Source: Odontesthes bonariensis (Eukaryota; Chordata; Actinopteri; Atheriniformes; Atherinopsidae). From it: a DNA stretch of 64,000 bases. The notes below the pieces were generated by a model. The model saw nothing but the letters and a program-made list of their open reading frames with translations, had not been told where the DNA came from and searched no databases. Shown here one piece after another: positions 24,355 through 58,144 of this stretch; within the stretch, counting starts at the first letter, position 1; the number at the start of each line of letters is the position of its first letter. The translations under genes were made by a program, and so were the position numbers. The DNA is taken from NCBI RefSeq assembly GCF_027942865.1, contig NC_134507.1, positions 37,606,797 through 37,670,796 on the forward strand, in the 5' to 3' direction.

Positions 24355-24560
24355 GCTAAAATTTAAATTAGAAACTTGTTCCGTTCAAATTTTAGAACTT
24401 CGTAATAGTGGCACATTTAAATTTTAAATTCAGAAACTTGTTTTGTTTTGTCCTAGTAACAGTGACCTATTTAAATTCAAGTTTTAGAAACTTAGCAGTC
24501 GTGACACATTTAACTTAAAAACTTTGTTTTGTTTTGTAATAATGACACACCTGAGGGCGG
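24355..24560. repeat. Degenerate ~65-bp tandem repeat inside the retrovirus
   Basis: About three copies of a unit containing TTAGAAACTTGTT, then GTAATAGTGGCACATTTAAA or close variants. It lies on the pol side of the gag remnant. No function is inferred. Confidence 0.5.
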
Positions 24561-33119: not shown

Positions 33120-36100
33120 TTTCCTCCCCCTTCTGTTGGCTCGCCACCCGGGTGGCGAGACAGGAAGTCCGCTACAGGGTTTTGTGACCCTGCCCTGTAT
33201 TTCACTGTGAACCTGAAGGGCTGCAAGGAGAGAAACCAACGTGTAATGCGTGCATTAGAGTCTTTCATTCTCCCCAGCCACTGCAACGCTCTGTGGTCAG
33301 TCTCAAGTACAAAGTCTCTGCCCAACAGGTAGTACTTGAATGTCTCTAGCGCCCATTTCACGGCAAGGCACTCGAGCTCCACCACCGAGTACCTTGTTTC
33401 TCGGGGGAAAAGCTTTCGGCTAATATAAGCCACCGGCTTCTGCTGCTCTGCCTCTCCCTGGAGAAGGACTGCCCCCAGCCCAACCCCAGAGGCATCCGTT
33501 TGCACCGTAAAGCTCTGTTCAAAGTCTGGGCTCTGTAGCACAGGCTCACAAAGCAGAGACCCTTTCAGATCCTGGAAGGCCTGCTCCTGCACCTCCCCCC
33601 ACTCCACCTTTGCCGACCCCGACTTGCGAGTCAGGTCAGTGAGGGGTGCAGCCCGGGTGGCGAAGTTCGGAATGAACCTCCGATACCACCCAGCAAGGCC
33701 CAGGAAAGAGCGGACGTCCTTCTTGGTCCGTGGTCGCTGGCAGTCCCGGACCGCCTCGAGCTTGTCCTTCTGTGGCTTGATCACACCATTGCCAATGATG
33801 TGGCCCAGGTAACGAACCTCCTGCTGAGCCAGGGAACATTTCTTTGGGTGGACAGTCAGGCCCGCCTCGCTGATGCGCCGGAACACCTCGGCCAGGTGTT
33901 GGAGGTGCTCCTCCCAGGTGTCGCTCCATACCACGACGTCGTCAAGGTAAGCTGCGCCGAAGCCCCCCATGCCCTCTAGGACATGGTCCATGAGTCTTTG
34001 GAAGGTCGCCGGTGCCCCCTGCAGGCCAAAGGGCATGGTTGTGAATTGGTACAGGCTTTGAGGGGTACGGAAGGCGGTGTACTGTTTCGCCCCCTCGGCC
34101 ATCGGCACCTGCCAATAACCCCTGCAGAGGTCAAGGGTCGTGATGAACGACGCCCTCCCAAGCCCCTCGATCAAGTCGTCCAGTCTGGGCATTGGGTAGG
34201 CGTCAAATGTGGACTGCGAGTTCAAGTGTCTGAAATCAATACAAAAGCGGATGCTGCCATCCTTCTTTAGGACCAGCACCACCGGGCTGCTCCAGCTGCT
34301 GCTGGACCGCTCAATGACCCCCAGCTGCTTCATGACCTCCAGCTCCTCCCGCAGAGCAGGAAGCAATCGCTCTGGGATGCGGTACATCCTCTGCCGCACT
34401 GGATTCGAGTCTTTAAGCTGGAGGTCATGCTCCACCAACGAAGTGCGCCCAGGCTGTTCGGAAAACAGGCCAGGCGGGATGATGGCCTGCAACTCCTCTG
34501 CTTGCTGAGCTGTCAGGTGGGAGACATCGGGGTCAGTTGGTGCGGCTGCTGCAGGGAAGAACTGCTCCTGCGGCTCCACATCACCTTCCACGTCCTGCAC
34601 CAGGAGCTGCAGGCTGGGCGGCACCTCCCGCTCATGCCACTCCTTAAGCAGGTTAATGTGAAAGACCTGCCTGGTCTTCCGGCATCTCCACCTCGTAGGT
34701 CACCGGCCCCCGCTGACGCGTCACGGTGTAGGGACCTTGCCAGCGGGCCAGCAACTTGTTCTCCGTCGTTGGCAACAGCAAGAGAACCTGCTGCCCGGGT
34801 GCGAAGCTCCTTTGCCTCGCCCTCTGGTCGTACCACTGCGACTGGGTCTGCTGGGCCTTGGTCATGTTCTCCTCCACCAAGCTGGCCATCCTCCCCATCT
34901 TCTCCTGGATCCGCAGGACGTAGGAGAGCACACTGTCTGGCTCCTGGGGTTTTGGTGTCACCCAGGCATCACGGAGTAGATCCAACGGGCCCCGGACCTG
35001 GCGCCCGTACAGCAACTCAAATGGGGAGAAACCAGTGGAAGCCTGTGGTACCTCCCTATAGGCGAAAAGGAGGTATGGCAACCACTGGTCCCAGTCTTTG
35101 CCGTTCTCCGCCACAAACTTTCTCAGCATCGACTTCAGGGTTTGGTTGTACCGTTCCACCAGCCCATCAGTCTGGGGGTGGTAGGGAGTGGTCCGTATCC
35201 CCTTTATCCCCAGCAAACTATACACTTGTCTAAGTGTCTTGGACAGGAATGCGGTGCCTTGGTCTGTCAGTATTTCATGTGGTATGCCTACTCGTGATAT
35301 CAGTTGTAACAGTGCTCTTGCAACTGACCCTGCAGTTATCTTACGAAGGGGGAATGCCTCTGGATAACGTGTGGCATAGTCACACATGACTAGAATGAAC
35401 CTGTGCCCTGACCTGGTTCTTTCCAATGGTCCTACAATGTCCATCCCTATCCTCTGAAATGGAACGCCTATGATGGGAAGTGGTTGTAGAGGGAAGGGTC
35501 TAGCCTTGTGTTTGCTAGTGAGTTGACAGGTAGCACATGTGCGACAGTATTTTTGAACATCAGTGTAGAGCCCTGGCCAGTGAAAGCGTTGTGCAATTCT
35601 TTCAAGGGTCTTAACAGTACCCAAATGCCCCGCCCAAGGTATATCATGGCCAAGACTGAGCACTCTCTCTCTCAGACATTTCGGCACTACCACCTGCTCT
35701 ATACTGCCATTTTCAGGTTGGTGGTACAATAAGTCATCTCTCACAAAGTAGTATTCACCCGTTAGCGCCTTAGCCACACCGGTTTGCACACCATCAATAT
35801 CTGTCACTTTAGCAAATGCATCCTTCAAAGAGTCATCATTCTTCTGCAGATCATTAAGATTATGGGGAGGCTTCCACACATCACTTTCATCAACAGGTTT
35901 TGGCAACTGGCCAACAACCTTAGCTGCTGTGCCCTGCAGTTTAGCACGTCTTCGTTGCCTACGTGTCTTAGGCATTCTAGTAACAGGGGGATCAATGTCA
36001 CATTGGCTATAGGGCAACATCTCACACACTTCCTTCTGTGCCTCTTCCTGTGCATCCTCCTCAGCAAACTGCTTAGCCATGGCCCTTGTGACTACCATGC

Positions 36101-37792
36101 TAACAGGCACCGATGACAGTACCAGCTCAGGCAAAATGAGGACATCTTGACCCAGCACTACAGGATACCGTAATCCTTGTACAATGCCTGCCCTCAGAAG
36201 GAAAGCTTGCCCCTGAACCTCAAGAAAAATATCTCCCACAGGGTACACATGCTCGTCTCCATTCACACAACACACTCTAAGCTGCTCTGTCCTCAATACC
36301 GCTGACTTATCGATCAGGTGTGGCTGGACAAGGGTGTGTGTGCTGCCAGTGTCAAGCAGGGCAAATGTTGGCTTCTCATTTACAGTTACCGGGATCGTTT
36401 GCACTTTGGATAACACATCATCAGCTCTAGGGACATTACAAAAACTGGACCCCTGAGCTTTCCTGCTCGGGCAGTCTCTGGCAATGTGGTTAGGTTTACC
36501 ACAGTTATGGCATGTGAAGGGCGGCCTATGAGTGGTAGCTGTGGGTGCCGGGTGTCTAGACGGTGGTGTGTAGGGGCGTGTAGGAGGCCTAGGTGATGGG
36601 GTGTAAGGGGAAGTGTAGGTGTGGTGCGGTGGCCTGACCTGACCTAACCCCCTAGGACCAACTCCCCCACCAGGAACCCCAGACTTACCACTGCCGGCTG
36701 GTCGGTTGTAGTTCTGGCTCCGGAACACCTTCGGACCCGATCGAGCTGCCAGGAACGCCTCCACCAGTTCAGCTGCTTGCTGGCCTGTGGTTGGGTTGTG
36801 CTCCTTAACCCAGACCCGGATTTCAGGAGCTAGGGTGCGCAGGTACTGCTCAAGCACGAGGATTTCTCCAATATCCTCCACAGTCTTGCCTGCCGGTCTC
36901 ACCCACTTCTTGTATAGGTCCATCAGGCGGTTGTACAGTTCCCGAGGGTTCTCCTCTGCTCGCACATCTGGATCCCGGAACCGCTGCCGGTACGTCTCGC
37001 CGTTGATTTCATACTTGGTGAGTATTGCTGCCTTCACTTTGTCGTAGTCCATGGTCTCATTCATGTCCATCGCGACATACGCCGCTCGGGCCCGACCCCT
37101 CAGGTATGGGACCAGGTAAATGGCCCAGTCTGCCCTCGGCCACCGGTAGGCCAAGGCCAGTCTCTCAAACGTTGTCAGATATTGTTCAATATCATCTCCT
37201 TCTTCCAGCTTTGACACTGATGCCCTCGTCCAGGCAACAGGATTCAGTGCGGCTGGGCCGATTACAGGGTGTGGTGCTGGAGGCTGTGATGGTGCTGGAG
37301 CTGCTGGCGCTGCTGCTACGGCTGCTGGAACTGCTGGTACCGGGAAACCTGGCGGTGGCGCTACTGGGTTGTGTTGAGGTCTCAGCTGTAGTAGACCCCC
37401 GTCGTCATCATCATCTGGCTGCTGATGCTGCTCCTCTCTTGCCTTTCGTCGATCTCTCTCCAGCTCGTCGTGTACAGTGTTGAGCTGAATCTGGACGTTG
37501 CGCCATCTCATTTCCTGCTTGTTCGCCTCACGTTGCTGGTCCAGTATGGATTTCTGTAGCAGACCGTACAGCGCGCTCATGTCCATTGTCTGCGGAACAC
37601 CATCTTCTCCGCCCATGGCTCCTCCGTTCGTCTCACCAGCCTCACGCTCCTCCACCTCTTCGGCTCTCACCTCCTCCCCGGCATCTTGGAGTAGACGCCG
37701 ATACGCCATGCCCCGTTTAGGCTGAACCCGTCTGCCTGTCGTCTTCTTCCCAATCTTCCGAGGCGCCACTGTCACCACTTCTGAACACCACT

Positions 37793-38815
37793 TGTGAGAA
37801 AGGGGGCTTCTCTACCCCCAGCTCACGTCAGGACTGGCCCTCTCCAATAAAGATTAAAAGAAGACTGAAACTAGGCAACTGAAAATATCGTGATACGGGT
37901 GCGGATTTATTTCCAGTGCAGAAGTGCATACAAAATATGAAAACAAAAACTGAATCAACGCAAAAGAAAACCGGCCTCAATCAGGCAACTCAAATAAACT
38001 ATAACAAAAGACTTTCTAAATACAAACTTCTTAGCATTTACTTCTTTTACACAGCCTCACAGCAAGCATGTGCATTCACCTCACCCTCTCTCTCTAGAAT
38101 GAGACAGGCCTGCCCTTTTGAAGGGCTCACAGACTGCAGCTCACTGATGATTGGTTCAGTAATCAACCAATAGAAAAATAAAGTCACAAAAAGCATTAAA
38201 ACACCCATTTAAATCCCCATACAAAATATCACAATACTCCCAAACCTACATTAAAATACTAGAATAGACACAGACCAAATTGACATTCCTAAATGTTTGC
38301 AATAAAGAGATACAATATTATTTCATTAAAACATTCCACTTCCGGGTGCCGAAAGCTCTCTCCACTGCCAGATCAGTGTATAAGAACTTTGGTTCCGAGA
38401 GGCTCTGGTTTCCTCCCGGACCCGATGGTTGACGCACCAATGCGAGGTGAGCGAAATGTTTGAATGTCTCGTGGGGGTTATTGTAATGCGTGTGGATTAT
38501 GGAGCCAAGACAACGGGTACCGCGCTGCTTGCTAACATGGTGAGTAAATGAATGTTCAAACAAAGTGTACATGTAATTGCGTGTGGGTGTCATCTCGCGC
38601 TAGCCGCGGTAAAACAATGAATGAATGTTTGTAAGGCTAACAGGTGTCTCGGCTGTGTGCGCCTGCGTGCGCCTGTGTGTGTGTCTGTGTGCTACTGCGC
38701 AAATGAGAGGGTCTTGTGAGTGTCGGAGGTGTCTGTGAGTGTAGACGAGTGTAGGTAAAGTCTGTAGTAGCGTTTCTGTGGAAAATGTGATTGCCATCCG
38801 TCGTCATTTTCCACA
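37793..38815 (-). repeat. 5' LTR of the Gmr1-like element
   Basis: The partner of 32,097-33,119, with equal length and nearly identical sequence. It is followed by the target-duplication copy CTGAG at 38,816-38,820. Confidence 0.95.
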
Positions 38816-41717: not shown

Positions 41718-42090
41718 GAGTTGGAACTGTCAGAGGCTGACACCTCTTTTCCAGGTGCCTCACTCGGCCGGACGGTGCAGCAAATTCAACTGTCTGCAGT
41801 GCCATGCCAGCAGCTAACCTGAATCTGAAAAGCTTGCAGATTAAAACAGTCCGGCTTTTCTTCATCTTTCTGATCAGGTCTTGTTTTAACTTCCTGCTCC
41901 TGAAGAGTGCAGACGTGTCTCTGCTTCCTCCTGCTTCCTCCTGCTGCTTATTGCTTTATTCGCTTTTAAATCATTCTACTTCTTTCCACAAGTCTTGGAT
42001 ATAATTTTATTCTTTTATTCTTTTTCTTTTAATTGTATATTTGTAAACGGTATTAGCCCTCCTGTTTACAAAAAGAATCGGACAGAAAAA

Positions 42091-43530
42091 ATGTCTCCTA
42101 ACCCTGCAGTATCAGTGAGCTGCACACAGTGTGAGCTACTCTTTGCGAAGGTAGCACAGCTCGAGAAGAGGATTGAAACGCTGCAAGACATTCGTAACGA
42201 CGAGGAATTTATTGACTCTATTATAGTTCCTGCGCAGGCTGTGGAGCCTTCATGTGCCAAAGGACTAACTCAGATCTTTCTACACGGGATCACAGCTGAT
42301 GTGGAATCTCACACTGCAGCCCTGGCTGACACACTTCCCTGGATCTGTCCAAATGACACTGGAATATCTGGTGAAGCTTCCAAACTGGACGGTCCGACTG
42401 ACATCTCACACTGGAACAGTGTTGGTGCCAAACCCAAATCATCAACCCCAGCCAGGATCTGGTCTCATGTTGTCCGTCGCAGAGGTAAATCCAGCACCAA
42501 AACTAAACCTCCAGCACTCACTCCGCCACCTGAAGTTCTATTGCACAATAGATACGATCCATTGACTCAAAATAGAGTGTGTGATGATGAATGTAACCCA
42601 AACATGAAGACAAACAAAATAAATGGCCCCAAACCTCAGCCTAGGGCTAACCAGATCATCAGGAGAAGCCCAAATCCCACAACCAAGGTGAGGACTACAG
42701 AAGCGATCGACACCTCCACACAAAAAGCAATAGACACCATTCTAATCGGGGACTCTATAACACAGCATGTCAGAATGGCAAAGACGGAAAATATAACTTT
42801 TTCTGATATATCAGTCAGGGAACTGATAGATATTTTGCCGACCATTCTGTCTACTCATCCAGATGGCACGAGGATCATTGTCCACACAGGGTCTTTTGAT
42901 ATTCTGAGAAGGAAGACTGGCTCTGAGATCCTGAAGAAGGATTTTTCTCTGCTGTTTGAGAGACTGTGTCACTATGGAGCACACCGGGTCTCCATTTCTG
43001 GCCCCATTCCTACTGTGGGTAAAGGAATTGAACTTTTCAGCAGACTTCTTGGCCTGAACACATGGTTGTCAAATGCATGCATCGCCCATGGGATTAAGTT
43101 CATTGATAACTTTAATATCTTTTGGAACTGTAAGGAGCGTTTCAGACCTGATGGCGTGCATCCCAATCGAACTGGATGCAGATTACTTGGTGCACATTTA
43201 CGTCATGCTGTTGGGACGGCAAACCCAAACATGACTGTACAGATTAGACTGAAGGACACAGCAGCGAGGCAAACAACCCCCAGCCCTCCCCCCTCACCAG
43301 ACCCTTTACTCCACATCACCCAAGGTCTCAAAAGGATGTCTCTATCCCAGCCAGGACTCCAGCGACCACAATCAACCGAGAAACGCAGGGCACCCCCTCC
43401 TCCTCCTCTTACATCATCTGTCCTGGCAGAGCAGGACACAGGGGGGGGTGCAGGATGTTCAAGGAGCAGCACAACACCCAGAGTTCAAAACAAAGATAGC
43501 ACTGTTCAAACCAAAGATACCATGCCATGA
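42091..43530 (+). CDS. L2 LINE ORF1 protein, esterase-like
   Basis: 479 aa from the first ATG (MSPNPAVSVSC) to TGA at 43,528-43,530. The N-terminus has a CTQCELLF Cys pair and a short heptad-like stretch (AKVAQLEKRIETLQ) that could be a coiled coil. The C-terminal half is an SGNH/GDSL hydrolase-like fold: TILIGDSITQH with the likely nucleophile Ser at about 42,754, and DGVHPN with Asp/His at 43,151 and 43,160. Esterase-type ORF1 proteins are known in CR1 and L2 LINEs and are thought to help bind RNA or membranes. The C-terminal tail is Pro/Ser-rich. It is in the same frame as ORF2, separated by a single stop codon. Confidence 0.88.
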   Translation: MSPNPAVSVSCTQCELLFAKVAQLEKRIETLQDIRNDEEFIDSIIVPAQAVEPSCAKGLTQIFLHGITADVESHTAALADTLPWICPNDTGISGEASKLDGPTDISHWNSVGAKPKSSTPARIWSHVVRRRGKSSTKTKPPALTPPPEVLLHNRYDPLTQNRVCDDECNPNMKTNKINGPKPQPRANQIIRRSPNPTTKVRTTEAIDTSTQKAIDTILIGDSITQHVRMAKTENITFSDISVRELIDILPTILSTHPDGTRIIVHTGSFDILRRKTGSEILKKDFSLLFERLCHYGAHRVSISGPIPTVGKGIELFSRLLGLNTWLSNACIAHGIKFIDNFNIFWNCKERFRPDGVHPNRTGCRLLGAHLRHAVGTANPNMTVQIRLKDTAARQTTPSPPPSPDPLLHITQGLKRMSLSQPGLQRPQSTEKRRAPPPPPLTSSVLAEQDTGGGAGCSRSSTTPRVQNKDSTVQTKDTMP

Positions 43531-46527
43531 TGTGTTCAGGGTCCCTGCTATAGAAGTCCGACTTCTGACAGCTGTTCTGAGAACAAGCTGGGGCCCAATA
43601 GGATTCCTGTATTAGTTAGTAAAAGAAGGAATCGAAAACAGTCAACCTGCTGGGTGAATTTATCTAATCTGTTATCGGTACCACGTACAACTCAGAATAC
43701 AACAGAGACCAGTGTAAACTCCACAAAGCTAGCCTTACTTAATATTAGATCTCTGTCCAATAAGTCACTGTTAGTTAATGACTTCATCATTTCACACAAT
43801 TTAGATTTTCTTTTTCTGACAGAAACATGGTTAACAGAGAGCACAAGTGCTACTGTTCTTAATGAAGCAGCCCCCCCAAACTTTAGTTTTATGGATAAAT
43901 GCCGAAATGGGAGGAAAGGTGGGGGGGAGGCTGCCTTATTTAAAGATACATTCCAGTGTAAAGAGATATCATTTGGGGAATTCACTTCTTTTGAATATCT
44001 GAGTTTTATTTTAAAGGGTGTTCCTAAAATCCTGTTCTTAATCATTTACAGATCTCCAGGATACTGTGCAAGTTTTATTGATGATTTTTCTGAATTATTG
44101 TCTGTTATTTTGACTGATTTTAACCATTTTATCTTGACCGGGGATTTTAACATTCACATGGATAATATGACGGATGGTACTGCCAAAGAATTTTCTTCTG
44201 TGCTGGACATGTTTGGTTTGTGGCAGCATGTAACAGAACCAACCCACCTTCGAGGTCACATTCTGGACCTGGTCATTTCTAAAGGTGTTGATATTTCTTC
44301 TGTTGTGGTTACTGATTTGGCCTTGTCTGACCATTTTTGTATTTTATTTGATTTACATATTACTCAGAATGTTCAAACAACCAGCTTCTCAGTTAAGAAG
44401 AGGTATATCAATGAGAAAACAAGTGCTCAGTTTAGGGAGGCCATAGTTATGTTACCAACAATGAGCGCAGAGTCGGTTGAAGGAATGCTGGATCATTTTA
44501 ACTTGAAAATTTTTAATGTAATGGAAGCTGTTGCACCGATAAGAATCAAGAGCACCTTGATTAAACAGAAAACCCCATGGAGAAACACCACTACGGTCAA
44601 AAATCTGAAAAGAGAATGCAAGAAAGCTGAACGTAAATGGAGGAAAACAAAGCTTCAGATTCACTATGAGCTATATAAAGAAAGCCTGCGTAGTTATAAC
44701 AATGAGCTGTGTAAGGCCAGACAGCTGCATTTATCTGAAATGATTAATAAGAATGTCAACAATTCTCGAACTCTGTTTGCTATGGTTGAAAAACTCACAA
44801 ATCCTCCTAAACAGTCAAACCCAGACCTCCTCTCCACTGAGAAATGCAACGAATTTGCCAACTTTTTTAGCCAAAAAATCAAAACAATTAGACAAAACAT
44901 TCACGCAACACAGACAAACAAGAAAACTAATCTGTGTCTAAAACCTAGAAATAACTCTGACGTTATGTCACAATTTAATAATGTTGATTTAAAAATCCTA
45001 GAGGAAACAGTTCGGCAGCTGAAATCAACAACTTGTTCTCTGGACATAATACCATCCGACTTTTTAAAAACTGTTTTTACCTCAGTAGAAAGTGATCTCC
45101 TACGAATAGTTAACAGCTCACTGGCATCAGGCATTTTTCCCAAGTCACTAAAGACAGCTGCCATTAAGCCACTCCTAAAGAAGAGAACTCTAGATGCCTC
45201 TATGATGAACAACTACAGACCTGTCTCTAACCTCTCTTTTATATCCAAGATTATTGAGAAAGTTGTATTTAACCAGCTCAACGACTTTCTGAATGAAAGT
45301 GGAAGTCTTGATAAGTTTCAATCAGGCTTCAGACGTCATCACAGCACTGAAACAGCTCTGGTCAAAGTGTTAAACGACATTAGGTTGAATACTGATTCTG
45401 GTAATGTTTCAGTCCTGGTTCTGTTGGACCTCAGCGCTGCGTTTGATACTGTAGATCACAGAATCCTGTTGCACAGGCTGGAAAACTGGGTTGGACTTTC
45501 TGGAGCGGTCCTTAACTGGTTCAGGTCCTACTTAGAAGGCCGGAGTTATTTTGTTACAATTGGCAGCTATGAATCTGAGCGAGTGGCCATGACTTGTGGA
45601 GTCCCCCAGGGGTCAATTCTTGGACCTCTTCTGTTTAACTTGTATATGCTCCCTTTGGGTCAGATATTGCAGAATTTTAACATCAATTATCACAGTTATG
45701 CAGACGATACACAACTTTATGTGTCTCTGTCACCGGACGACTGCAGCCCAGCAGACGTGCTGTGTCAGTGTCTGGAGGAAGTAAACACCTGGATGAGAGA
45801 GAATTTTCTACAATTAAATGAAGACAAAACTGAGATCATTCTGTTTGGGAGCAAAGAGAAGAGGGTCAGCGTTGGTACATATCTTGAGACTCGGGACCTT
45901 ATAATCACTGACCAAGTTCGTAACCTCGGAGTGTTGATAGACTCAGATCTGACTTTCAGCAGCCACATCAAAGCTGTCACCAAGGCAGCTTTTTACCACC
46001 TCAGAAATATCAATAGAATTAAAGGTTTCCTCTCCCAAAAAGACCAGGAGAAACTCATCCATGCATTCATCTCCAGTAGACTCGATTACTGTAACACTCT
46101 TTTAACTGGACTTCCCAAAAAGAGCATTAAACATCTGCAGCTCATCCAGAACGCTGCTGCTAGAGTTTTAACCCGGACTAAGAGATCTGAACACATCACA
46201 CCAGTTTTAAAATCTTTACACTGGCTTCCAGTCAGTCATAGAATAGATTTTAAAAGCCTGCTGATGGTTTACAAATCCCAGAATGGTTTAGGCCCAAAAT
46301 ACATCTGTGATATGTTCAGAGAATATAAACCCAGCAGAGCTCTTAGATCCAAGGACTCAGGTCAGCTGGTCCAGTCCAGAGTCCAGACTAAACATGGAGA
46401 AGCAGCATTTAGCTGTTATGCTGCAAATAAGTGGAACAAACTGCCAGTGGAGATTAAACTTTCACCAAATGTAGACATTTTTAAATCCAGGTTAAAAACA
46501 TTTCTTTTCTCATGTGTCTATGCATGA
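43531..46527 (+). CDS. L2 LINE ORF2 protein, endonuclease-reverse transcriptase
   Basis: About 998 codons, open from directly after the ORF1 stop to TGA at 46,525. The apurinic-type endonuclease lies at about 43,730-44,370 (LLNIRSLSNKS, FLTETWL, LTGDFNIHMD, LSDHFCILFD). Reverse transcriptase lies at about 45,150-45,950 (NNYRPVSNLSFISK, LLDLSAAFDTVDH, GVPQGSILGPLLF, YADDTQLY with catalytic Asp codons at 45,703 and 45,706). The C-terminal block ends KSRLKTFLFSC. All expected motifs are present. The frame contains no ATG before codon 43,891, which is already inside the endonuclease. Production therefore probably depends on read-through or re-initiation at the ORF1 stop, or on a non-ATG start such as GTG at 43,654. 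Confidence 0.93.
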   Translation, partial: CVQGPCYRSPTSDSCSENKLGPNRIPVLVSKRRNRKQSTCWVNLSNLLSVPRTTQNTTETSVNSTKLALLNIRSLSNKSLLVNDFIISHNLDFLFLTETWLTESTSATVLNEAAPPNFSFMDKCRNGRKGGGEAALFKDTFQCKEISFGEFTSFEYLSFILKGVPKILFLIIYRSPGYCASFIDDFSELLSVILTDFNHFILTGDFNIHMDNMTDGTAKEFSSVLDMFGLWQHVTEPTHLRGHILDLVISKGVDISSVVVTDLALSDHFCILFDLHITQNVQTTSFSVKKRYINEKTSAQFREAIVMLPTMSAESVEGMLDHFNLKIFNVMEAVAPIRIKSTLIKQKTPWRNTTTVKNLKRECKKAERKWRKTKLQIHYELYKESLRSYNNELCKARQLHLSEMINKNVNNSRTLFAMVEKLTNPPKQSNPDLLSTEKCNEFANFFSQKIKTIRQNIHATQTNKKTNLCLKPRNNSDVMSQFNNVDLKILEETVRQLKSTTCSLDIIPSDFLKTVFTSVESDLLRIVNSSLASGIFPKSLKTAAIKPLLKKRTLDASMMNNYRPVSNLSFISKIIEKVVFNQLNDFLNESGSLDKFQSGFRRHHSTETALVKVLNDIRLNTDSGNVSVLVLLDLSAAFDTVDHRILLHRLENWVGLSGAVLNWFRSYLEGRSYFVTIGSYESERVAMTCGVPQGSILGPLLFNLYMLPLGQILQNFNINYHSYADDTQLYVSLSPDDCSPADVLCQCLEEVNTWMRENFLQLNEDKTEIILFGSKEKRVSVGTYLETRDLIITDQVRNLGVLIDSDLTFSSHIKAVTKAAFYHLRNINRIKGFLSQKDQEKLIHAFISSRLDYCNTLLTGLPKKSIKHLQLIQNAAARVLTRTKRSEHITPVLKSLHWLPVSHRIDFKSLLMVYKSQNGLGPKYICDMFREYKPSRALRSKDSGQLVQSRVQTKHGEAAFSCYAANKWNKLPVEIKLSPNVDIFKSRLKTFLFSCVYA

Positions 46528-47104
46528 AATATCTTTTAACTTATCTAGACTGTTGCCTGATTTTAAATTCATTTAAATGATTTTATTTGTTTCTCTTTAT
46601 ATTATTTTATGTATTTTTAATGCTTCTTGCACTCCCTGCTGCAATGCTTTTATTTTATGTAAAGCACTTTGAACTGTTTGTACATGAAATGTGCTATACA
46701 AATAAATTTGATTTGATTTGATTTGATTTGAACAACCAAGGAAATTGGAGCACAAATTGATTTAGTTTTTCCACTCTCCCCATCTCTAGAGCCACACCCA
46801 ACCCACACTGGGAAAATTCTTAGTTGAGGCAAACCCTCACGGCTTAATATCTCCAGTGCAGAAATGCTGCCGTATTCTCATCTCGTTGTTGCCATCACTA
46901 AGGCAACGCCCACCTGCCTGGGGTGACTGCACTGTATGACCTCACCTGACAACTGCGCAGCTGCATATCAGCTGTGCAGACCTGCCGCAGCATTCAGCAA
47001 ACCTTGCAAAACATGGGTTTTAAAGATGGAAAGGTGTCGTTAAAGCAGCAACGCCAGGAACCAAGGTTGAGTTGCCCAGGGGTATTCACGTTATACAGTC
47101 AAAT

Positions 47105-47980: not shown

Positions 47981-48528
47981 GAGTTGGAACTGTCAGAGGG
48001 TGACACCTCTTTTCCAGGTGCCTCACTCGGCCGGACGGTGCAGCAAATTCAACTGTCTGCAGTGCCATGCCAGCAGCTAACCTGAATCTGAAAAGCTTGC
48101 AGATTAAAACACTCCGGCTTTTCTTCATCTTTCTGATCAGTTCTTGTTTCAACAACCAAGGAACTTGGAGCACAAATTGATTTAGTTTTTCCACTCTCCC
48201 CATCTCTAGACTCACACCCACCCACACTGGGAAAATTCTTAGTTGAGGCAAACCCTCACGGCTTAATATCTCCAGTGCAGAAATGCTGCCGTATTCTCAT
48301 CTCGTTGTTGCCATCACTAAGGCAACGCCCACCTGCCTGGGGTGACTGCACTGTATGACCTCACCTGACACCTGCGCAGCTGCATATCAGCTGTGCAGAC
48401 CTGCCGCAGCATTCAGCAAACCTTGCAAAACATGGGTTTTAAAGATGGAAAGGTGTCGTTAAAGCAGCAACACCAGGACAAAAACAAAGGTTGAGTTGCC
48501 CAGGGATATTCACGTTATACAGTCAAAT

Positions 48529-48603
48529 CAGGGGAGAGCACGAACGCAGTCCCCCACTACCAGAAATTATGCAGTCGAGATTCCCACATTTGGGGAGCTC
48601 GCA
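48529..48603 (-). pseudogene. U1 snRNA copy 9, 3' part, cut by a Dada-like transposon
   Basis: RNA positions 97-164 (48,529-48,596), followed by GCTCGCA (48,597-48,603), which would be the diverged left copy of the target duplication. It carries C153 to U, shared with copy 10. The other 96 nt are at 57,502-57,597; 68 + 96 = 164, so no U1 sequence was lost. Confidence 0.95.
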
Positions 48604-48659
48604 GAAGATTTCCGAACTGAAGTGCAAAAGTCTACGTTGCTTGTAGACAGTTACGGCCT

Positions 48660-48760
48660 GTCATTGGCCTAGACTCTACGTTAAGTGTAGACTCTAGGCC
48701 AATCAGAGAGGAGTCTACATTCTAAATGTAGACTCTAGGCCAATCAGAGAGGCTCTTGGC
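48660..48760. repeat. Subterminal inverted/direct repeats near the left end of the Dada-like element
   Basis: ATTGGCCTAGACTCTAC (from 48,664) is followed by two direct copies of TAGACTCTAGGCCAATCAGA, so the first can fold on the second. The same GACTCTA(A/G)GCCAAT core recurs 50 bp from the right end of the element. These are candidate transposase-binding sites. Confidence 0.6.
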
Positions 48761-48819
48761 CAATTCAAGCCAAACCAACTCGCGAAATACCGAGAGGCTG
48801 CTACGAAGGTACAGTTTGT

Positions 48820-49475
48820 TACTACGATCATATTCTAGCGATATACCTCTGTAATTGATAAAAAATGTCCCGCATTTACCTACTACGATTATATTCTAGC
48901 GATATACCTCTGTAATTTATCAAGAAGATCACCTGTTTATATGTAATACAAGGTTTTTAGCGTAATGTTAAAGCTGGGTGACCGGAGGGTGTTAGCAACG
49001 CTATAAAGTTTATTTTTAGCAAAAAAAATATACAGCATGGCTTTATTTATATCATTTTCCTGTCTTCTTTGTGAATGTCACATCAACAGATAACAGATAA
49101 CGTTTTTAACGTTGTAACATGGAAGTCGAGTGACACCAGTGGCAGTAAAGGTCTGCAGCCAGACCCTCTAGCTCGTCTGCGATCATATTCTGGCGATATA
49201 CCTCTGTAATTTATTAAGAAGATCACCTGTTTATTTTTAATACAAGGTTTTAAGCGTAATGTTAAAGCTGGGTGACCGTACGCTGTAAATATCTCCGCGT
49301 TGCTCCATGGGTGTTTTGTTTAATCAACGCTATAAAGTTTATTTTTAGCAAAAGACAAAAATACGTCATGGCTATATTTATATCATTTTCCTGTCTACTT
49401 TGTGAATGTCACATCAACAGATAATAGATAACGTTTTTAGCGTTGTAAAATGAAAGTCGAGTGACACCAGCGACA
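48820..49475. repeat. Imperfect ~295-bp tandem duplication in the 5' region of the Dada-like element
   Basis: The segment at about 48,880-49,150 is repeated at about 49,178-49,470. Both begin CGATTATATTCTAGCGATA or a close variant and include AGAAGATCACCTGTTTAT, GTAATGTTAAAGCTGGGTGA and GAAGTCGAGTGACACCAG or close variants. A short third start (TACGATCATATTCTAGCGAT) lies at about 48,822. It precedes exon 1 of the transposase gene and probably contains its promoter. Confidence 0.8.
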
Positions 49476-49734
49476 GTGCACATGCGCTCTTTCAAGCTGC
49501 AACTCTGTCAAGTGCGTCTGTGATTTGGCCCGGAGCCATTATTTATGCAAAAAAAATAAATAAAATATCCACCTCGTTTGGATGAATTTTAATACGTGTT
49601 ACATTTGCCTGTTGTACATTTTCAATTCTGGTGGCAATGCTATGGCTTTTGCCTCCATTTGTCTAATAATAGTGACCATTGCAATGGTTATAATGATCAT
49701 GATATTGCTAAAAGTCTGTTGACAATTTCAGGAC

Positions 49735-52700
49735 ATGGATACTTTGCTGCCAGCCCTCAACATCCTGAACACCAGCCTGCCGGCAGAGAGGCAGCAATGC
49801 GTTCTGGCAGCCTCCAAGGCAGCCAAGGCCCAGCAGGGGAGAGGTCAGGTTTGTCCGAGGGACGATAAACTGAGGGACCCCAAGACTGCCTTTGAGGAGG
49901 GTAAACATCTTGGCATTGCATTTATACTATAAATATATAAGTAATGACAATGTGGTGCACCAGAGCTTTTGCTTGCCTGTTCACTGAGGTCATAACATGT
50001 CTCGTCTTCAGCAAAGAGGCGCTGCGGCGTACAGAGGCCGACTGAGGCCCAGTACTTGGGGCAGCTGGTCCTGACCTTCGGCCGCTACACCGGCCGGACC
50101 TTCAAGTGGCTGGTCGAGAACGACGTGGGCTACGTCAAGTAGTAAGCATTTACAAGAAAACCAAAGCAAGCCAGGAACAGTTTTCCCTTCACTGAAAATA
50201 ACAGCGATGTGTGTGTGTGTGTGTGTGTGTGTGCATTTCAGTCTTGTCGACCGCCACGTTAAAGAGAGCCGGCAGCCGGAGAAGCGTGGGGCCTTAAACG
50301 AGGAGTGGTTGAAGGACAGCCTGCTGCAGTACGTGGAGCTCTTTCCGGCCATCTCCTGCCACCTCGAGAGGAACGTGGACAAGGCCATTTACGGCATGGG
50401 CCGTTTCCGGTCGTTCACGTTCCTCGAGATGTGGCAGTGGTACCAGCACCACCAATCTGACCCTCAAGCCGGCAGTGAGCAGGAGCGGAGGATGGCGCAG
50501 GAGGCCCACACCTCTGTCAAGCAGTGGCTGCTGATGCGGGAGAGTGACATCACCTCGAAGTCACTCAAACGCTTCAGACAGTATATACTGGATAAAGAGG
50601 TAACTACACTGCATTCTGTAACTACACTGCATTCTGTAACTACACTGCATTCTGTAACTACACTGCAAAACCCAATAATAATGTAATAGCTCACACTCAC
50701 CTGTAATTCACAGAGCGCCACTCCTCCTCCTGCTGCTGCCGCCGCTGCCACTTCAAGGGCCCCTGCTGCAGCTGCCACCTCCCAGGCGCCATGGTCTGAC
50801 GACGCTCCGGACGACACTGCTCTGGTGGATGCCCTCGTCACCTTCGAGAGCCATGGGGAGCCCATCTCCGCCAGTCAGCCTCCTCCTATGTCCGCCTAGG
50901 GTCCCAAACAGCCGTCGCCACTCTCCACCAGCGTGCCAGCTTCTCCAAAGAAGTCTACCAGCAAGAAGGAAAGGCGCAGCAAGCAGCAGAAGCCGTCCTC
51001 ACAGCCCTCCACCAGCACGGCTGCCTTAACACAGCACAAGCAGCTCCTGCTGTCCTCACAGCCCTCCACCAGCAAGGCTGCCTCAAAGCAGCTCCTGCTG
51101 TCCTCACAGCCGTCCACCAGCACGGCTGCCTCAACACAGCACAAGCAGCTCCTGCTGTCCTCACAGCCCTCCACCAGCAAGCCTGCCTCAAAGCAGCTCC
51201 TGCTGTCCTCACAGCCGTCCACCAGCACGGCTGCCTCAACACAGCACAAGCAGCTCCTGCTGTCCTCACAGCCCTCCACCAGCAAGGCTGCCTCAGAGCA
51301 GTTCCTGCTGTCCTCACAGCCGTCCACCAGCACGGCTGCCTCAACACAGCACAAGCAGCTCCTGCTGTCCTCACAGGCGTCCACCAGTAAGGCTGCCTCA
51401 AAGCAGCTCCTGCTGTCCTCACAGCTGTCCACCAGCAAGGCTGCCTCAAAGCAGCTCTTGCTGTCCTCACAGCCGTCCACCAGCAAGGCTGCCTCTACTG
51501 AGTCTCCTGAACAACAGACGCCCGTGCCGTCCTCAGCGCCTGGTCAGGGTCCCCCTGATGCTCGTCCCGAGGAGCCGCCGTCGACCTCACAGCCTGCGTC
51601 TGCCACCACCTTGTCACAGAGTGACTCTTCTGTAAGTGTAAAATCACAAAATACACAAGCAATGTTAATGCATTTCACAAAATCACCACATTAGGGAAAA
51701 TAAATAACTAAATGTTGTGCGTTGTTGTACACCTTGTGTCTTGCAGGTGGAGCTGGAAGGCTGGGTGCGCCTCTGGGAAGACCCCAACGGAATCCCCTCT
51801 GCCGACATCCCCTGGCTGAAGGAGGACAGCGAGCGAGGCCTCTTCACACCAGTCCAGGTCTACAAGGACATAAAGGGCGCCATTAGAAGGCGGCGAGTGT
51901 TGAAGTCAGACCGGATGTGGTTCTACCCACCCGAGCCACCCGGCTTTGTGAGCGGCGGCATTCCCACTCCACAGGCCTTTTTCCGAGGCCGCTTTTTCTT
52001 CTGGCGTCCCGTCGGAGTGTGGCGGTGCTCCCTGAAGTGTCCGCGCGGAGAGAAGTGTGCCGGGGCTGGAGGCAACTCACACCTCTCCAAGTCTGGCTAC
52101 CACTCCCGGGTAAGGCTCAGTCTCTGCACAGCTGTGCTCAGAGAAATACACACATCACCATGGACTACTTAACCTTGTAGCACCCAAGCATACGAATAAT
52201 CATTGAAAAAAATCATTTTGGCTCTTCTTTCATCTTTTTGGGTGGGAATAAACCAATATTTTTGGAATTTTTGAAATTGGGCTATTTTTAATCATTTTAG
52301 GCAATGTTGCAAATTTGCAACTGTGGGCTTTCCTGATTAATTTTGTTCACACAACCAAGTCATTCTCTGCAGATCGATTGGCAAAAAAGGTATAGTGAAC
52401 TGCTGCTACCACAATAAAATGTATGTAATAGATCTTTATTGAACATTCTTAATACAAAGTGCGGAACGCAACCATCATAAACTTTCCATTCAACAACAAA
52501 TCAAAAAGATTTCACAGATCTTTGTTGTGAAAAAGGGAAGCACACATAAAATGCAAAAAATGTAATGTAAATAAATAATGTAAATAAATAAAAAGCTTGT
52601 TGCATATCTGCAACCTGTGATTGACCTGTGATTCTCTCTCTCTCTGTTTTAGGTACGTCACATCTGTGATGTGTTGGGCTGGTACACCCTGGCGACAGAG

Positions 52701-53916
52701 GTGTTGTCGTGCGGGCCGTGTCTCAAGGCTGCCAGAGGTGGAGAGAGCGGACCCATGGGTCGGTGGCTGGCGTGGGACGACGCCATCCTCCGGCAGCTGA
52801 GCGAGGCACATCGGGCCAGGTTTCCCGCCATACTGACTGCCAGGCGAGGGGTGGACAAGACCATCATTCGCCTCCTGCGTGACAGAACGGAGGGTAACAC
52901 GATGGTCAAGGTGTGGCGGCAGGTGCAGGAGAACCACCTGGAGGACTACCATGAGAGGAAGGACCTCTACACCACACTCCTCATGGCCCTGGTGGAACCC
53001 AGAGGCATCGTCTCTGCGCTGGGCCACAGGGAGTTCCAGGCACCGCCCCCTCCGAGAGCGGTTCCCTGCGCCCGGCTCCTGTGCCACGCCTTTCTCCTGG
53101 CCGAGGCGGACAACGTGCAGGATTACCGGAGCCAGATCCTGTCCACGTTCGGCAAAGTGCTGAAAATGGACTCCACGAAGAAGGCAAGTTAGCCAAAAGT
53201 GTGTTGCATACAAGTACTCACAGGGAAACACCACATTATGCAAAGCTAAACTGTATTTGTTTGTTTGTTTTGTTGTAGGTGGTGAAGAAGCTGTCTGGGG
53301 AGGGCAAGGGCTCGGCTGAGTGGTTCACCAGCATCGGCAACGAGCTCTCCCAGATCGTCAGCTTTGTGCTCACCTGCGAGGAGTCGGTGGAGAAGCTGGG
53401 GCCCATGTGTCGTGGGGTGATGGAGAGGTTTCGCCTCGCAAACCAGCCCGTCCCCCAGATCCTCTACATCGACCGCGGCTGCTGCAAAGCACAGGGTCCG
53501 ACCGCGGTGGAGATCATGTTCCAGTCCTGGGTGGACGAGGGGATGGTGGTGAGGCTGGACATTTTCCACTGGCTCCACCGCTTTGACGCCGCTCTAAGAA
53601 CGGAGGCTCACTCCAAATACGGCCCCTTTAAATCCGCGCTGGTCGGGGCGGTGCTGGCCTACAACCGCGAGGACCTCCAGCTCCTCATCGCTGCCATCAG
53701 GGCCAGAGACCCGGCCACCATGGAGGTGGTGAGTGACGAGGACGTGGTCCGGCGGTACGTCTCCCGGGACCAGCTGAAGCACCATGTCCGGCGGGTCACC
53801 CTCGGGGCCCAGGAGACGTTTCGCCTGGTCCACCTCCTCATCGAGGACATGAAGGGTCCAGCAGGGCCGGATGAGAGCGGCGTCAGCCTCTTCAAGTCCC
53901 CTGGTAAGAAAAAAAA

Positions 53917-53956
<40 letters not shown>

Positions 53957-55969
53957 AAAATGACTGCAGCTCAACATGTGTGTGTGTGTGTGTGTGTTTA
54001 CAGCGGCCATTGATGAGATGTGGGCAGCCCAGCAGCGACATCTGGAGTGCATCCAGGACCCCCCAGGCATGGTCATGAATCGTGTCGCCCGCACCACCAC
54101 CATCAACAGTGTGGACGTCCCGTATTACAAGGGCCTGCGTGGGAGCAACAGCCTGGAGGGGTTCCATAAATCTTTGCCCCACATGATTCCAGGTAATCTA
54201 AGGGGGAAAAATACCAAAAAAAAAAACACGTTTATCACATGATAACTGAGGCACTGATAATACCTGTTTGTTGTGATGTTCAGGTCCCCACTGTGCGGCG
54301 CGGCCTGGCATCGCCAGGTGGAACGCTGACCGCAGCTCAGACGCGGTGTTTGGGGGCGGAGGGCGGCACCACCGGGTGTACTCTGCGCCACTCATTGACC
54401 GCCTGAACTCCCGCTGCCAGCAGCTGTTGGGCGAGCCAGTGGAGCGCAACTTCCGGGCCCCGGCTGATGTCCAGTCCGATGAGCTGCTCGGGCTGGAGTA
54501 CCTCTTCAGCCAAAGCACGGGGGAGGCGTTCTCGCTGGAGGGCATCGTCAGCGACGGTCCTGGGCCGGAGGAGGAAGTCGTTCAGCCTGGGGAGGTCGAC
54601 CCAGACGCCGACGAGGCGTACCAGAGCGAGGAGGACCGTACTGATGTGGAGCCCTACATCAGACTGACCAGCAGCGAGACTGCTTCGGATTGGACTCACA
54701 AAGGCAGGAGCCTTTGTGAGTCCAATACATACTGATAGAAGAGAATACAGCGATACATACATGTGACCCACTGAAAAAACAAGACATCGTATACATTGAA
54801 ACTTACCTACTTTTCTGTGTGTGTGTGTGTGTGTTTTACAGGACGATGTCTGCAGTGTCAGTCCTCTGCCCGGGTTCCAGAAGCTGGAGGCTTTCTGTGC
54901 TGCGCTGCTGGAGGTCGGCTTGACAGAGCAGAAGCTGCTCCTCAGCACAGCAGAGCGGAACAGGGTCCTTCATGCCTGGAATGGGGTGAAGGAGCATGAC
55001 AAACAGCCACAGCGGTACCACCAGCTCTACCGCACCCACTGGGGCAACACGCTATATTGTCGGACCAAGAGGGACGACCTGGCTGACGCCGCTGTGGTCC
55101 AGCGGGTAAAGATGGCTAGGAGGTACGCGCCAGCTCAGCAGGACATCAGCCCGCAGCACAACCGGCTGATGTGCGTGCTGGTCAAGCTGCTGTGGCTGCG
55201 CAGCCCTCAGGCCTCCCGCTCCAGCCCTGAGAAGGCCAACATTCTCAAGGCCTATGAGAGGATCCAGCACCGGGTCTTGGTAGAGGACCCCGTCCTTTGC
55301 AAGGCGGGCATCCCTCTCCCCAAAATTAACACCAAGACGGTGAGAGACTTCATCCGCCAGCAGGAGAGGCTGGTCAACCTCCACGCCACCAGGCAGCCAG
55401 CTGTGACCTCAAAGGCCGCGTCTGTGTCTTGTGAGCAGCTGCCTCCTGCACCACGCCAGCCGGACGTCCTCCCTCCACCCGACTACCCCGTGATGGAGTA
55501 CGTCCCCACGTCCAGCACAGCCGGCACCAAGGTGTTGAAGGGTCGGACCAACCTGCTGCTGGAGACGCCGCAGCCTCCTCCACAGCTGCTCCGTCTGCCG
55601 GTGAGGAGAATCCCCACCACCTCCACCATCACCAGGCCTCCTGCAGTGCTGCCCCTCGTCTCCTGCTCTGCCCCGTCCACCATCACCACGCCTCTGCTGC
55701 CCCTCGTCTCCTCCTCCACACAGCCTGCTGGTCAGGCCTCCATCCCGCAGGTCACGGCGTCTGTGCCCATCAGGCCAGGTGTAAAGCCGCCCTCTGGACA
55801 AAGTGCTGTGGCAGGGTTGTCGTGGTCCCGATCGACTCTGTACAAGAGAAAGCTGGCAGACCACCCCACTGAGCTGGGCGTGAAGGTTCAGCGTCTCCCG
55901 GCCTGCAAAGTTTGCGGGCACAAAATCCAGGGACACAAAAAATATAAAAAAAAAGACATATTGCCCTGA
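49735..55969 (+). CDS. Dada-type DDE transposase, ten-exon gene, probably damaged
   Basis: Phase-consistent exons are 49,735-49,900, 50,012-50,141, 50,242-50,599, 50,714-51,631, 51,747-52,109, 52,653-53,183, 53,279-53,903, 54,004-54,192, 54,284 to about 54,715, and 54,842-55,969, giving about 1,600 codons. The ATG is MDTLLPALNI. Exon 4 is low-complexity. Exons 5-6 carry a Cys-rich domain (GVWRCSLKCPRGEKC, then VLSCGPC) resembling DUF6729. Exons 7-8 hold the likely catalytic core: Asp in LYIDRGCC (53,471), Asp in VRLDIFHW (53,558) and Glu in SNSLEGFHK (54,156). Exon 10 ends with CKVCGHKIQGHKKYKKK. Intron 6 uses a GC donor. Oddities: an in-frame TAG at 50,897 in exon 4, and an exon 9 donor (GTGAGT, 54,716) that would put exon 10 out of phase. 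The copy is therefore probably non-functional as it stands, or splicing differs from my model. Confidence 0.8.
50600..50666. repeat. 18-bp tandem repeat in transposase intron 3
   Basis: About 3.5 copies of GTAACTACACTGCATTCT, beginning exactly at the splice donor, so the donor motif CTGTAACT is repeated every 18 bp. Confidence 0.9.
51035..51500 (+). repeat. Coding minisatellite in transposase exon 4 (Ser/Gln-rich)
   Basis: Alternating in-frame units of 48 bp (QLLLSSQPSTSKAASK) and 57 bp (the same with STAASTQHK), about nine in all. It encodes a flexible Ser/Thr/Gln linker between the N-terminal and Cys-rich parts of the transposase. Confidence 0.9.
54689..54726. repeat. Perfect 17-bp inverted repeat over the exon 9 donor
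   Basis: Arms ATTGGACTCACAAAGGC (54,689-54,705) and GCCTTTGTGAGTCCAAT (54,710-54,726) around the loop AGGA. The GTGAGT donor motif lies in the right arm, and its exact complement lies in the coding sequence just before it. Confidence 0.9.
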
Positions 55970-56114
55970 GATCCACCGTTCACCCTCCAAAGGACTGGAA
56001 GACATAGTTTTCAAAAACTTTGAACACTTCATGTCCGTTGTGGACGGACTGGAGGAGTGAACGGTCGGCCCCTTGTAAATAGTGTATATAGTTCCTGTGT
56101 TCATGCTCTGCGTT

Positions 56115-56760
56115 CTGTGTGTTGTTCTCTGCACTGTTGCCCTATTTCATTCACTTTATGTGGGGTTGTTCTCTGCACTGTTGCCCTATTTCATTCACTT
56201 TATATGGGGTTGTTCTCTGCACTGTTGCCCTATTTCATTCACTTTATGTGGGGTTGTTCTCTGCACTGTTGCCCTATTTCATTCACTTTATGTGGGGTTG
56301 TTCTCTGCACTGTTGCCCTGTTTCATTCACTTTATGTGGGGTTGTTCTCTGCATTGTTGCCCTATTTCATTCACTTTATGTGGGGTTGTTCTCTGTGTTC
56401 TGGACGAACAATTGCCCTTAAACATGTCACGTGTTGTTCTCTGCACTGTTGCCCTATTTCATTCACTTTATGTGGGGTTGTTCTCTGCACTGTTGCCCTG
56501 TTTCATTTACTTTATGTGGGGTTGTTCTCTGCACTGTTGCCCTATTTCATTCACTTAATGTGGGGTTGTTCTCTGCACTGTTGCCCTATTTCATTCACTT
56601 TATGTGGGGTTGTTCTCTGCACTGTTGCCCTATTTCATTCACTTAATGTGGGGTTGTTCTCTGCACTGTTGCCCTCTTTCATTTACTTCATGTGGGGTTG
56701 TTCTCTGCACTGTTGCCCTATTTCATTCACTTTATGTGGGGTTGTTCTCTGCACTGTGCC
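56115..56760. repeat. 44-bp minisatellite in the 3' region of the Dada-like element
   Basis: About 14 copies of a 44-bp unit containing GTTGTTCTCTGCACTGTTGC, CCTATTTCATTCACTTTATG and TGGG. One copy is interrupted by a segment with ACGAACAATTGCCCTTAAAC. 44 is not a multiple of 3, so all three frames look open; these frames are not genes. It lies after the transposase stop, in the probable 3' UTR. Confidence 0.93.
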
Positions 56761-57501
56761 CTTTAAAGTTGCACTTCTGTGATGCTCTGTAAACTGTGCC
56801 ATTACATTTTGTATTGCTCCACAATGCCATGCAATTCATGGTCCTCTGTGCCCTCTCTGAGTGCCCTTTAACGCAGCACCTTTTGTTGTTCCTCGGCACT
56901 GCACCCTCTGGTGTCAACATTGCCCTTGGATGCTGTTTGCTGTGGTACTGAATAAAAATGGTCAGTGCTACAGTCACAATGAGTCGTGGAGTGTCTGTCA
57001 ATTGATTCAACAATAACAGAGCCTAGTTATCAGAAATAAGGGCCATATAAATAAATGGCTTCTAGGGAAGTAGCATAAGAGGCATAGGAGTAAGTGATAA
57101 TCAATAATACTTTATTGAAAGAAAGGGAGCAAAAAAAAAACTACATGGCATGAATTTTGAATAGCTTTTTGTTCATACACACACTTGAGATATAGCAAAA
57201 GTATGACAATAAATGCATTTAACACTTTATTCTGTTGATTGCCATGACAATACCATGCAAAAGCATGCCAGGAGGGGACTTTTGTGCGCAAATGGATGCA
57301 GGGGGCTTATGCTTGGTGCAACTATAAAATTGTGTGCCATTTGTGCTGTAATATCCTGGTCCTTCCTGGTCCACAAGACCTGGGGGAAGGCATATGCAAA
57401 TTACTCTTGAGGTCAGTGATATCAGAATTCTTAATTGCACCCACATGGACTCTAAGCCAATGGCTCGCAGGGTCAATTGCACTCCTATTCAGCACATTGC
57501 C
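56761..57501 (+). other. 3' end of the Dada-like element
   Basis: Non-coding. An AATAAA at about 56,951 is a reasonable polyadenylation signal for the transposase transcript. The last 55 bp contain the subterminal motif GACTCTAAGCCAAT and GCTCGCAG, the same 8 bp found at the left junction (48,597-48,604). Confidence 0.6.
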
Positions 57502-57597
57502 ATTCGCAAGGGTCAGTACAGCCGGTGTGCAATGGCTGAGCCTCGTCCTGGGTGAACCACCTTCTTGATCATGGTATCTCCCCTGCCAGGTAAGTAT
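57502..57597 (-). pseudogene. U1 snRNA copy 9, 5' part
   Basis: RNA positions 1-96, matching the array consensus exactly, with its own upstream region intact. Transcripts starting here would run into the right end of the transposon. It pairs with the 3' part at 48,529-48,596. Confidence 0.95.
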
Positions 57598-58144
57598 GAG
57601 TTGGAACTGTCAGAGGCTGACACCTCTTTTCCAGGTGCCTCACTCGGCCGGACGGTGCAGCAAATTCAACTGTCTGCAGTGCCATGCCAGCAGCTAACCT
57701 GAATCTGAAAAGCTTGCAGATTAAAAAAGTCCGGCTTTTCTTCATCTTTCTGATCAGTTCTTGTTTCAACAACCAAGGAACTTGGAGCACAAATTGATTT
57801 AGTTTTTCCACTCTCCCCATCTCTAGAGCCACAGCCACCCACTCTGGGAAAATTCTTAGTTGAGGCAAACCCTCACGGCTTAATATCTCCAGTGCAGAAA
57901 TGCTGCGTATTCCCATCTCGTTGTTGCCATCACTAAGGCAACGCCCACCTGCCTGGGGTGACTGCACTGTATGACCTCACCTGACAACTGCACAGCTGCA
58001 TATCAACTGTGCAGACCTGCCGCAGCATTCAGCAAACCTTGCAAAACATGGGTTTTAAAGATGGAGAGGTGTCGTTAAAGCAGCAACGCCAGGACAAAAC
58101 CCAAGGTAGAGTTGCCCAGGGATATTCACGTTATACAGTCAAAT

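Follow-up and report, generated by a model that had tools for sequence, protein, structure and literature searches.

A tandem array of U1 snRNA genes, with a repeat unit of ~712 bp, lies in the window, i.e. the whole 64,000-nt stretch of DNA that was analysed, and all coordinates given here are positions within this window on its + strand, position 1 being the first letter. The U1 matches detected by Rfam all lie on the minus strand and number 15: 14 complete genes and, at 69.8 bits, the right part of an interrupted gene. In total, the array comprises 16 U1 genes: 14 intact, one split by an LTR element and one split by an insert that we identify, with a probability of about 0.93, as a Dada-U1 DNA transposon residing within a single U1 gene of the array. 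The gene parts flanking this insert, namely a 3' part of 68 nt (48529–48596, minus strand) without private change and a 5' part of 96 nt (57502–57597, minus strand) retrieved by Rfam, are both in register with U1 and sum to 164 nt. The split of one U1 gene, as proposed by an earlier sequence-only reading of this DNA, was thus confirmed. The Dada-U1 element was examined as one copy, within the window, and the array itself provided an empty-site control, ATTCGCAAG being found at the target position in 14 of the 14 intact U1 copies.

Another U1 gene of the array is interrupted at RNA positions 58–62 by a Ty3/Gypsy-like LTR element (32097–38815, minus strand; type assigned by eye from its frames), with LTRs of 1023 bp that are 99.6% identical, TG...CA ends and a 5-bp duplication, CTGAG. 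In addition, a U1 spacer hosts on the + strand (41891–46722) a long non-LTR retrotransposon, recognised by eye, that has an (ATTTG)n tail and two long frames, which measure 546 and 998 aa from stop to stop.

The transposase gene, its relatives and its lesions

The insert carries on the + strand a gene (49735–55969) for which ten exons were modelled (49735–49900, 50012–50141, 50242–50599, 50714–51631, 51747–52109, 52653–53183, 53279–53903, 54004–54192, 54284–54715 and 54842–55969), their borders being placed by eye at GT-AG and, in one case, GC-AG sites. The modelled gene is collinear with the full-length protein P0089 of Alosa sapidissima, with 68% identity over 1566 aligned positions. Its core corresponds to Pfam DUF6729 (E 6.8e-43, residues 53–268 of the exon 5–9 protein), exons 5 and 6 (51747–53183) containing most of this match together with the cysteines of a CCCC zinc finger. 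Furthermore, 88 of the 7990 scored candidates, mostly fish by name, were homologues at E <= 1e-3, which together with the DUF6729 score excludes a chance match; the top identities were 88% with a Pimephales protein (421 residues) and 89% with a Leuciscus protein (234 residues). Following the lead of the earlier reading, which advised a search of the exons against DUF6729-containing fish proteins, we infer that DUF6729 marks Dada proteins; a literature search on DUF6729 found no paper. Among viral contigs, no relative of the exon 7 protein was found.

Homologue alignment located the candidate catalytic residues, i.e. a first Asp in KMDSTKK (53169–53171), a second Asp in YIDRGCC (53471–53473), the DxxH signature DIFH (53558–53569) and a Glu in SNSLEGF (54156–54158), all in columns that are invariant or nearly so across 30 homologues. 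The DDE triad and the DxxH following the second D, both features of the Dada superfamily, are thus present, with predicted spacings of 69 (D-D) and 195 (D-E) residues and the DxxH in between, compared with 68 and 176 for the residues D567, D635 and E811 given for Dada-U6_DR in the available text of PMC3706591. The N-terminal CCCC zinc finger of Dada proteins was also recovered, by hand from the translation, as C-x5-C-x36-C-x2-C, published spacings being 1–2 residues shorter. The multi-exon transposase-like gene with DDE residues announced from the letters alone is therefore borne out, with ten modelled exons and each of the D, D, DxxH and E signatures.

Several other features were observed along this gene. 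Near the N-terminus, exons 2–3 (50071–50248) show a weak resemblance to ExoX-like_C (E 0.0026, below cut-off), and in four homologues this match was either below cut-off (two) or not found (two). A 105-bp coding repeat of 4.9 copies occupies 50995–51495 in exon 4, and a 44-bp minisatellite of 14.5 copies lies inside the element downstream of the gene (56121–56762). A Pfam Adeno_VII hit on exon 10 (25.0 bits for a cut-off of 21.2, E 3e-5) was judged to be a chance or composition match.

This copy, as written and modelled, would be unable to make a full transposase. An in-frame TAG (50897–50899), seen in the translation and the homologue alignment, falls in a poorly conserved linker of exon 4. 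In exon 9, downstream of the catalytic Glu, a 7-codon in-frame gap (54295–54321) corresponds to seven missing residues conserved in relatives (YQVYLxS); this pattern occurs in 32 of the 41 homologues carrying the Glu motif (93 looked at), with a near variant in 5, and the sequence of the other four differs or ends there. A palindrome with perfect 16-bp arms (54690–54725) lies at the end of exon 9, where the joint with exon 10 is out of phase in the exon model. Finally, after a run of nine A (55946–55954), the open frame ends within the C-terminal zinc finger, and homologue-like sequence continues past the run in another frame. The CCHC finger that characterises Dada proteins is consequently cut after C, C and H and lacks its last residue; all four residues are present in full-length P0089 and others, and we take this loss for a lesion or a sequence error of this copy and not for a family difference. 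Some of these lesions may be assembly errors, or may reflect a wrong exon model at the exon 9–10 joint. With a transposase frame that is apparently broken, this copy is unlikely to be active, and the earlier description of the insert as autonomous-sized holds for its length but not, given these defects, for an intact gene.

The fold of the transposase was approached through its homologues, with structure models built from sets of 30 (A1) and 43 (A2) of the 93 sequences. A sequence search for solved relatives gave nothing credible (best E 0.19), and Foldseek returned no match at E <= 0.001 for the first model, its top rows being mostly retroviral integrases. On a second look at the Foldseek list with VIA-align, both homologue models displayed a predicted RNase H-like core, for which ISCth4, of the IS256 family, was the best solved match among the chains compared. 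The alignments, of 241 and 262 residues, span the helical insertion (domain limits from the accessible portion of PMC7780238). ISCth4 and the IS256 family are bacterial, and identity to the fish homologue models is 9–11%. Structures of Hermes and other hAT transposases were not among the 50 matches listed for either model, which excludes nothing. IS256 elements move by copy-out/paste-in with a circular intermediate, and we know of no tie between this family and small-RNA genes. A fold predicted to be shared with ISCth4 would not establish a shared pathway; this putative IS256-type match of the homologues is an addition of the present work.

Element boundaries, subterminal motifs and the doubled right end

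At its borders, the insert reads GGGGA-GCTCGC-AG on the left and ATTCGC-AAGGG on the right. On the left, past the 68 nt in register, the sequence continues as GCTCGCA where U1 has ATTCGCA, so that 74 nt (48529–48602) are readable as U1 with 2 mismatches, and the blastn match to U1 stretches to 48603 at 96%. The left hexamer, GCTCGC (48597–48602), replaces the ATTCGC found there in 14/14 intact U1 copies, and the right hexamer, ATTCGC (57502–57507), is the same as in intact U1; 4 of their 6 positions are identical, making them a candidate 6-bp duplication, where Dada elements characteristically produce one of 6–7 bp. Judged from these letters, the preferred reading gives the left U1 part 74 nt, two of them altered within the duplicated hexamer, and makes the putative element, delimited by end and junction comparison, the 8899 bp between 48603 and 57501 (+ strand). 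The 68 + 96 = 164 arithmetic of the sequence-only reading is correct as a sum, but it overlooked this degenerate duplicated hexamer, or else described an insertion without duplication.

The insertion occurred at the GCGAAT hexamer (U1 sense), which is the published Dada-U1 target site; for zebrafish Dada-U1, the available text of PMC3706591 gives GCGAAT or GCGAAC, which read as ATTCGC and GTTCGC on the + strand of the window. The element is oriented opposite to U1, as is also implied by the published target ATTCGCAGGGGTC (PMC8869645). None of the 25 listed inverted-repeat pairs (of 26, at least 20 nt long) connects the two ends, and the tips are unlike by eye, so the lack of terminal inverted repeats expected of the Dada superfamily is found here. 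Left subterminal inverted repeats, GGCCTAGACTCTAC and GTAGACTCTAGGCC, were detected by repeat search at 48658–48749.

Dada-U1 elements are described, in the accessible part of PMC3706591, as carrying a subterminal motif, GTGCAAT/ATTGCAC, equidistant from the hexamer in their ends and in U1. In the present copy this offset is 19 nt in the left end (GTGCAAA, 48622–48628, one base off GTGCAAT), in the right end (ATTGCAC, 57476–57482) and in U1; the joint frequency of GTGCAA at offset 19 in both ends and U1 was ~3e-7, based on word counts inside the element. No significant local alignment was obtained between the element ends (100 nt each) and U1, 216, 230, 967 and 1000 of 1000 shuffles reaching the observed scores. 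According to the Rfam alignment, the U1 motif ATTGCAC corresponds to the loop of stem-loop II. In vertebrates this loop is bound by the protein U1A, whose counterpart in Drosophila is SNF. SNF binds a stem-loop II loop starting with AUUGCAC, according to the available part of PMC5992148. Its location within a loop to which a protein binds would account for the conservation of the target motif. Neither "loop" nor "SNRPA" appears in the main text of PMC3706591; the 19-nt spacing and its coincidence with the stem-loop II loop are added here for this copy.

The rarity of private changes around the insertion bears on the left hexamer. Comparing the interrupted unit with 12 of the 14 intact ones (the other two having truncated units), we counted no private change in the left 68 nt and 6, one of them a gap, in 639 aligned right positions, the other compared units showing 0–2 (left) and 0–7 (right). 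Private changes thus number 2 in the 6 nt of the hexamer, compared with 6 over the 707 aligned flank positions (~0.001 by a hand-calculated Poisson estimate), which makes drift an improbable source of these two changes.

Furthermore, GCTCGC occurs again 39 bp inside the right end, at 57463, followed by the target-like AGGGTCA, and these two copies, at 48597 and 57463, are the only ones that the + strand contains from 48500 to 57620. The right end reads successively ATTGCAC (57434–57440), 22 nt, GCTCGCAGGGTCA (57463–57475, its hexamer being that of the left flank), ATTGCAC (57476), 19 nt and ATTCGCAAGGGTCA. Global alignment of these two modules, whose borders were picked after the match was seen, was equalled by 0/5000 shuffles and 0/8816 sliding windows of the element; their local alignment is weak, 198/5000 shuffles reaching its score. 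Placing the right border at the inner hexamer yields an element of 48603–57462 flanked at each end by GCTCGC, a perfect duplication of 6 bp. This doubled right end with its GCTCGC pair, also added here for this copy, suggests either what is left of a tandem copy or a flank carried along from the donor.

The first of these scenarios, which we hold tentatively and at less than even odds, supposes two Dada-U1 elements inserted in tandem in the same U1 gene, the outer one reduced to a 33-bp remnant (57469–57501) and the inner one bounded by the perfect duplication. It would account for the exclusive pairing of GCTCGC and for the repeated right-end module, and zebrafish Dada-U1A/U1B and U1A/U1A tandems with one hexamer between them are reported in the accessible text of PMC3706591; however, the inner motif lies 22 nt and not 19 from its own hexamer, the remnant has no clear left end, and the module comparison suffers from its post hoc borders, its weak local alignment and the modest likeness of the right end to U1 (230/1000). 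Rather unlikely in our view, a donor hexamer GCTCGC kept on excision, as a single-stranded flap or coupling sequence, could instead have replaced the left target hexamer; with no true duplication involved, the split of U1 into 68 + 96 = 164 nt would then be literal. Such a transfer fits the excess of private changes in the hexamer, the one-sided hexamer replacement reported for Dada-tA and Dada-tY (PMC8869645) and the comparable GCGAAT/GCGAAC variation of zebrafish Dada-U1 in the available text of PMC3706591. It is weakened by the fact that no donor site was identified for this single copy, and by GCGAGC not being among the Dada-U1 cases of the published main text.

Doubtful as well is a plain 6-bp duplication of ATTCGC whose left copy later acquired two point changes, the inner GCTCGCAGGGTCA being in that case the normal right end of the family. 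Both changes are transitions, and the inner sequence has no significant local alignment with U1. Repeated motifs are common near transposon ends, and their presence here would be ordinary; but two changes would have struck six bases adjacent to 68 bases devoid of any, and the match between the altered hexamer and the inner one would be a coincidence. Far less probable than any of these, a misassembly in which a Dada fragment became attached to the U1 array could be invoked from the difficulty of assembling tandem arrays and from the nine-A run, a potential sequencing error; against it, both junctions fall at the published hexamer, each with the 19-nt motif spacing, and the flanks vary as in other units.

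Dada-U1 affiliation and a putative insertion route

A Dada-U1 insertion into a U1 gene, in a host that the homologues suggest to be a ray-finned fish, remains our preferred reading: the element is a Dada-U1 of an already described type, in the published site and orientation. The Dada assignment made by the earlier reading is thereby narrowed to Dada-U1 on the grounds of the DUF6729 relatives, the D-D-DxxH-E signature, the lack of long terminal inverted repeats, the hexamer site, the orientation and the 19-nt motif. Its closest systems, Dada-U1A_DR and Dada-U1B_DR of zebrafish, share with it the target gene, hexamer, orientation, GTGCAAT/ATTGCAC motif, size class and DDE transposase. It differs from the Dada-U1 lineage by its left hexamer (GCGAGC in U1 sense, absent from the main-text GCGAAT/GCGAAC), its doubled right end and its apparently broken transposase gene. 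Dada-5S shares a tree branch with Dada-U1 and has a similar target (PMC8869645), but this target is the 5S rRNA and not, as in the window, U1. Known Dada-U1 hosts belong to the Cyprinidae, Danionidae, Anabantidae, Adrianichthyidae, Percidae and Tetraodontidae (PMC8869645, Table 1). For the one copy seen here, strict targeting would follow by analogy with the literature.

Unusually for DNA transposons, Dada elements insert at a single position of multicopy small-RNA genes; they have also been discussed as gene-delivery tools (both from the available text of PMC3706591). The association of a copy and its empty-site controls in one window brings out a ruler-like motif spacing common to the target and both ends, together with a structural lead (the predicted IS256-type core) and a boundary anomaly. 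In the route that we propose, the DDE transposase would recognise, 19 nt from the GCGAAT hexamer (U1 sense), the ATTGCAC of the U1 DNA that encodes the loop of stem-loop II, cut at this hexamer with a 6-nt stagger and join the element, both ends of which share the motif and its spacing with the target. Redundancy of the array would allow the host to tolerate losing one U1 gene, and the copy may have decayed later, or may have been moved by the transposase of another copy.

A bolder synthesis, which we consider improbable, would make Dada a eukaryotic element of IS256 type, with an intermediate that keeps a donor spacer hexamer, as in IS256/IS3 circles, and a duplication that is not always clean. 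One-sided replaced hexamers, tandem copies with one hexamer between them and the 68 + 96 = 164 split would follow from it, the ends copying the U1A-binding stem-loop II loop DNA of U1 at the 19-nt ruler. A literature search combining Dada, DNA transposon and copy-out retrieved only Kolobok work naming Dada among superfamilies; as far as this search goes, such a route appears unproposed for Dada.

A tree of 46 of the 93 homologues, picked for coverage and built with a quick method, carried no target labels and thus leaves the U1 lineage unproven by tree. In this tree, the window's protein shares its clade with sequences from hosts belonging to several fish orders, the end branch of Etheostoma being 0; this mixture could be a sign of horizontal transfer or hidden paralogy. 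Elsewhere in the window, we observed a 12-bp tandem array of 57 copies, open in several frames (427–1106), interrupted minus-strand frames of retroelement-like character that resemble gag/pol pieces by eye (21000–25500), and tandemly arranged C2H2 zinc fingers in an open frame with an 84-bp repeat (15357–16433).
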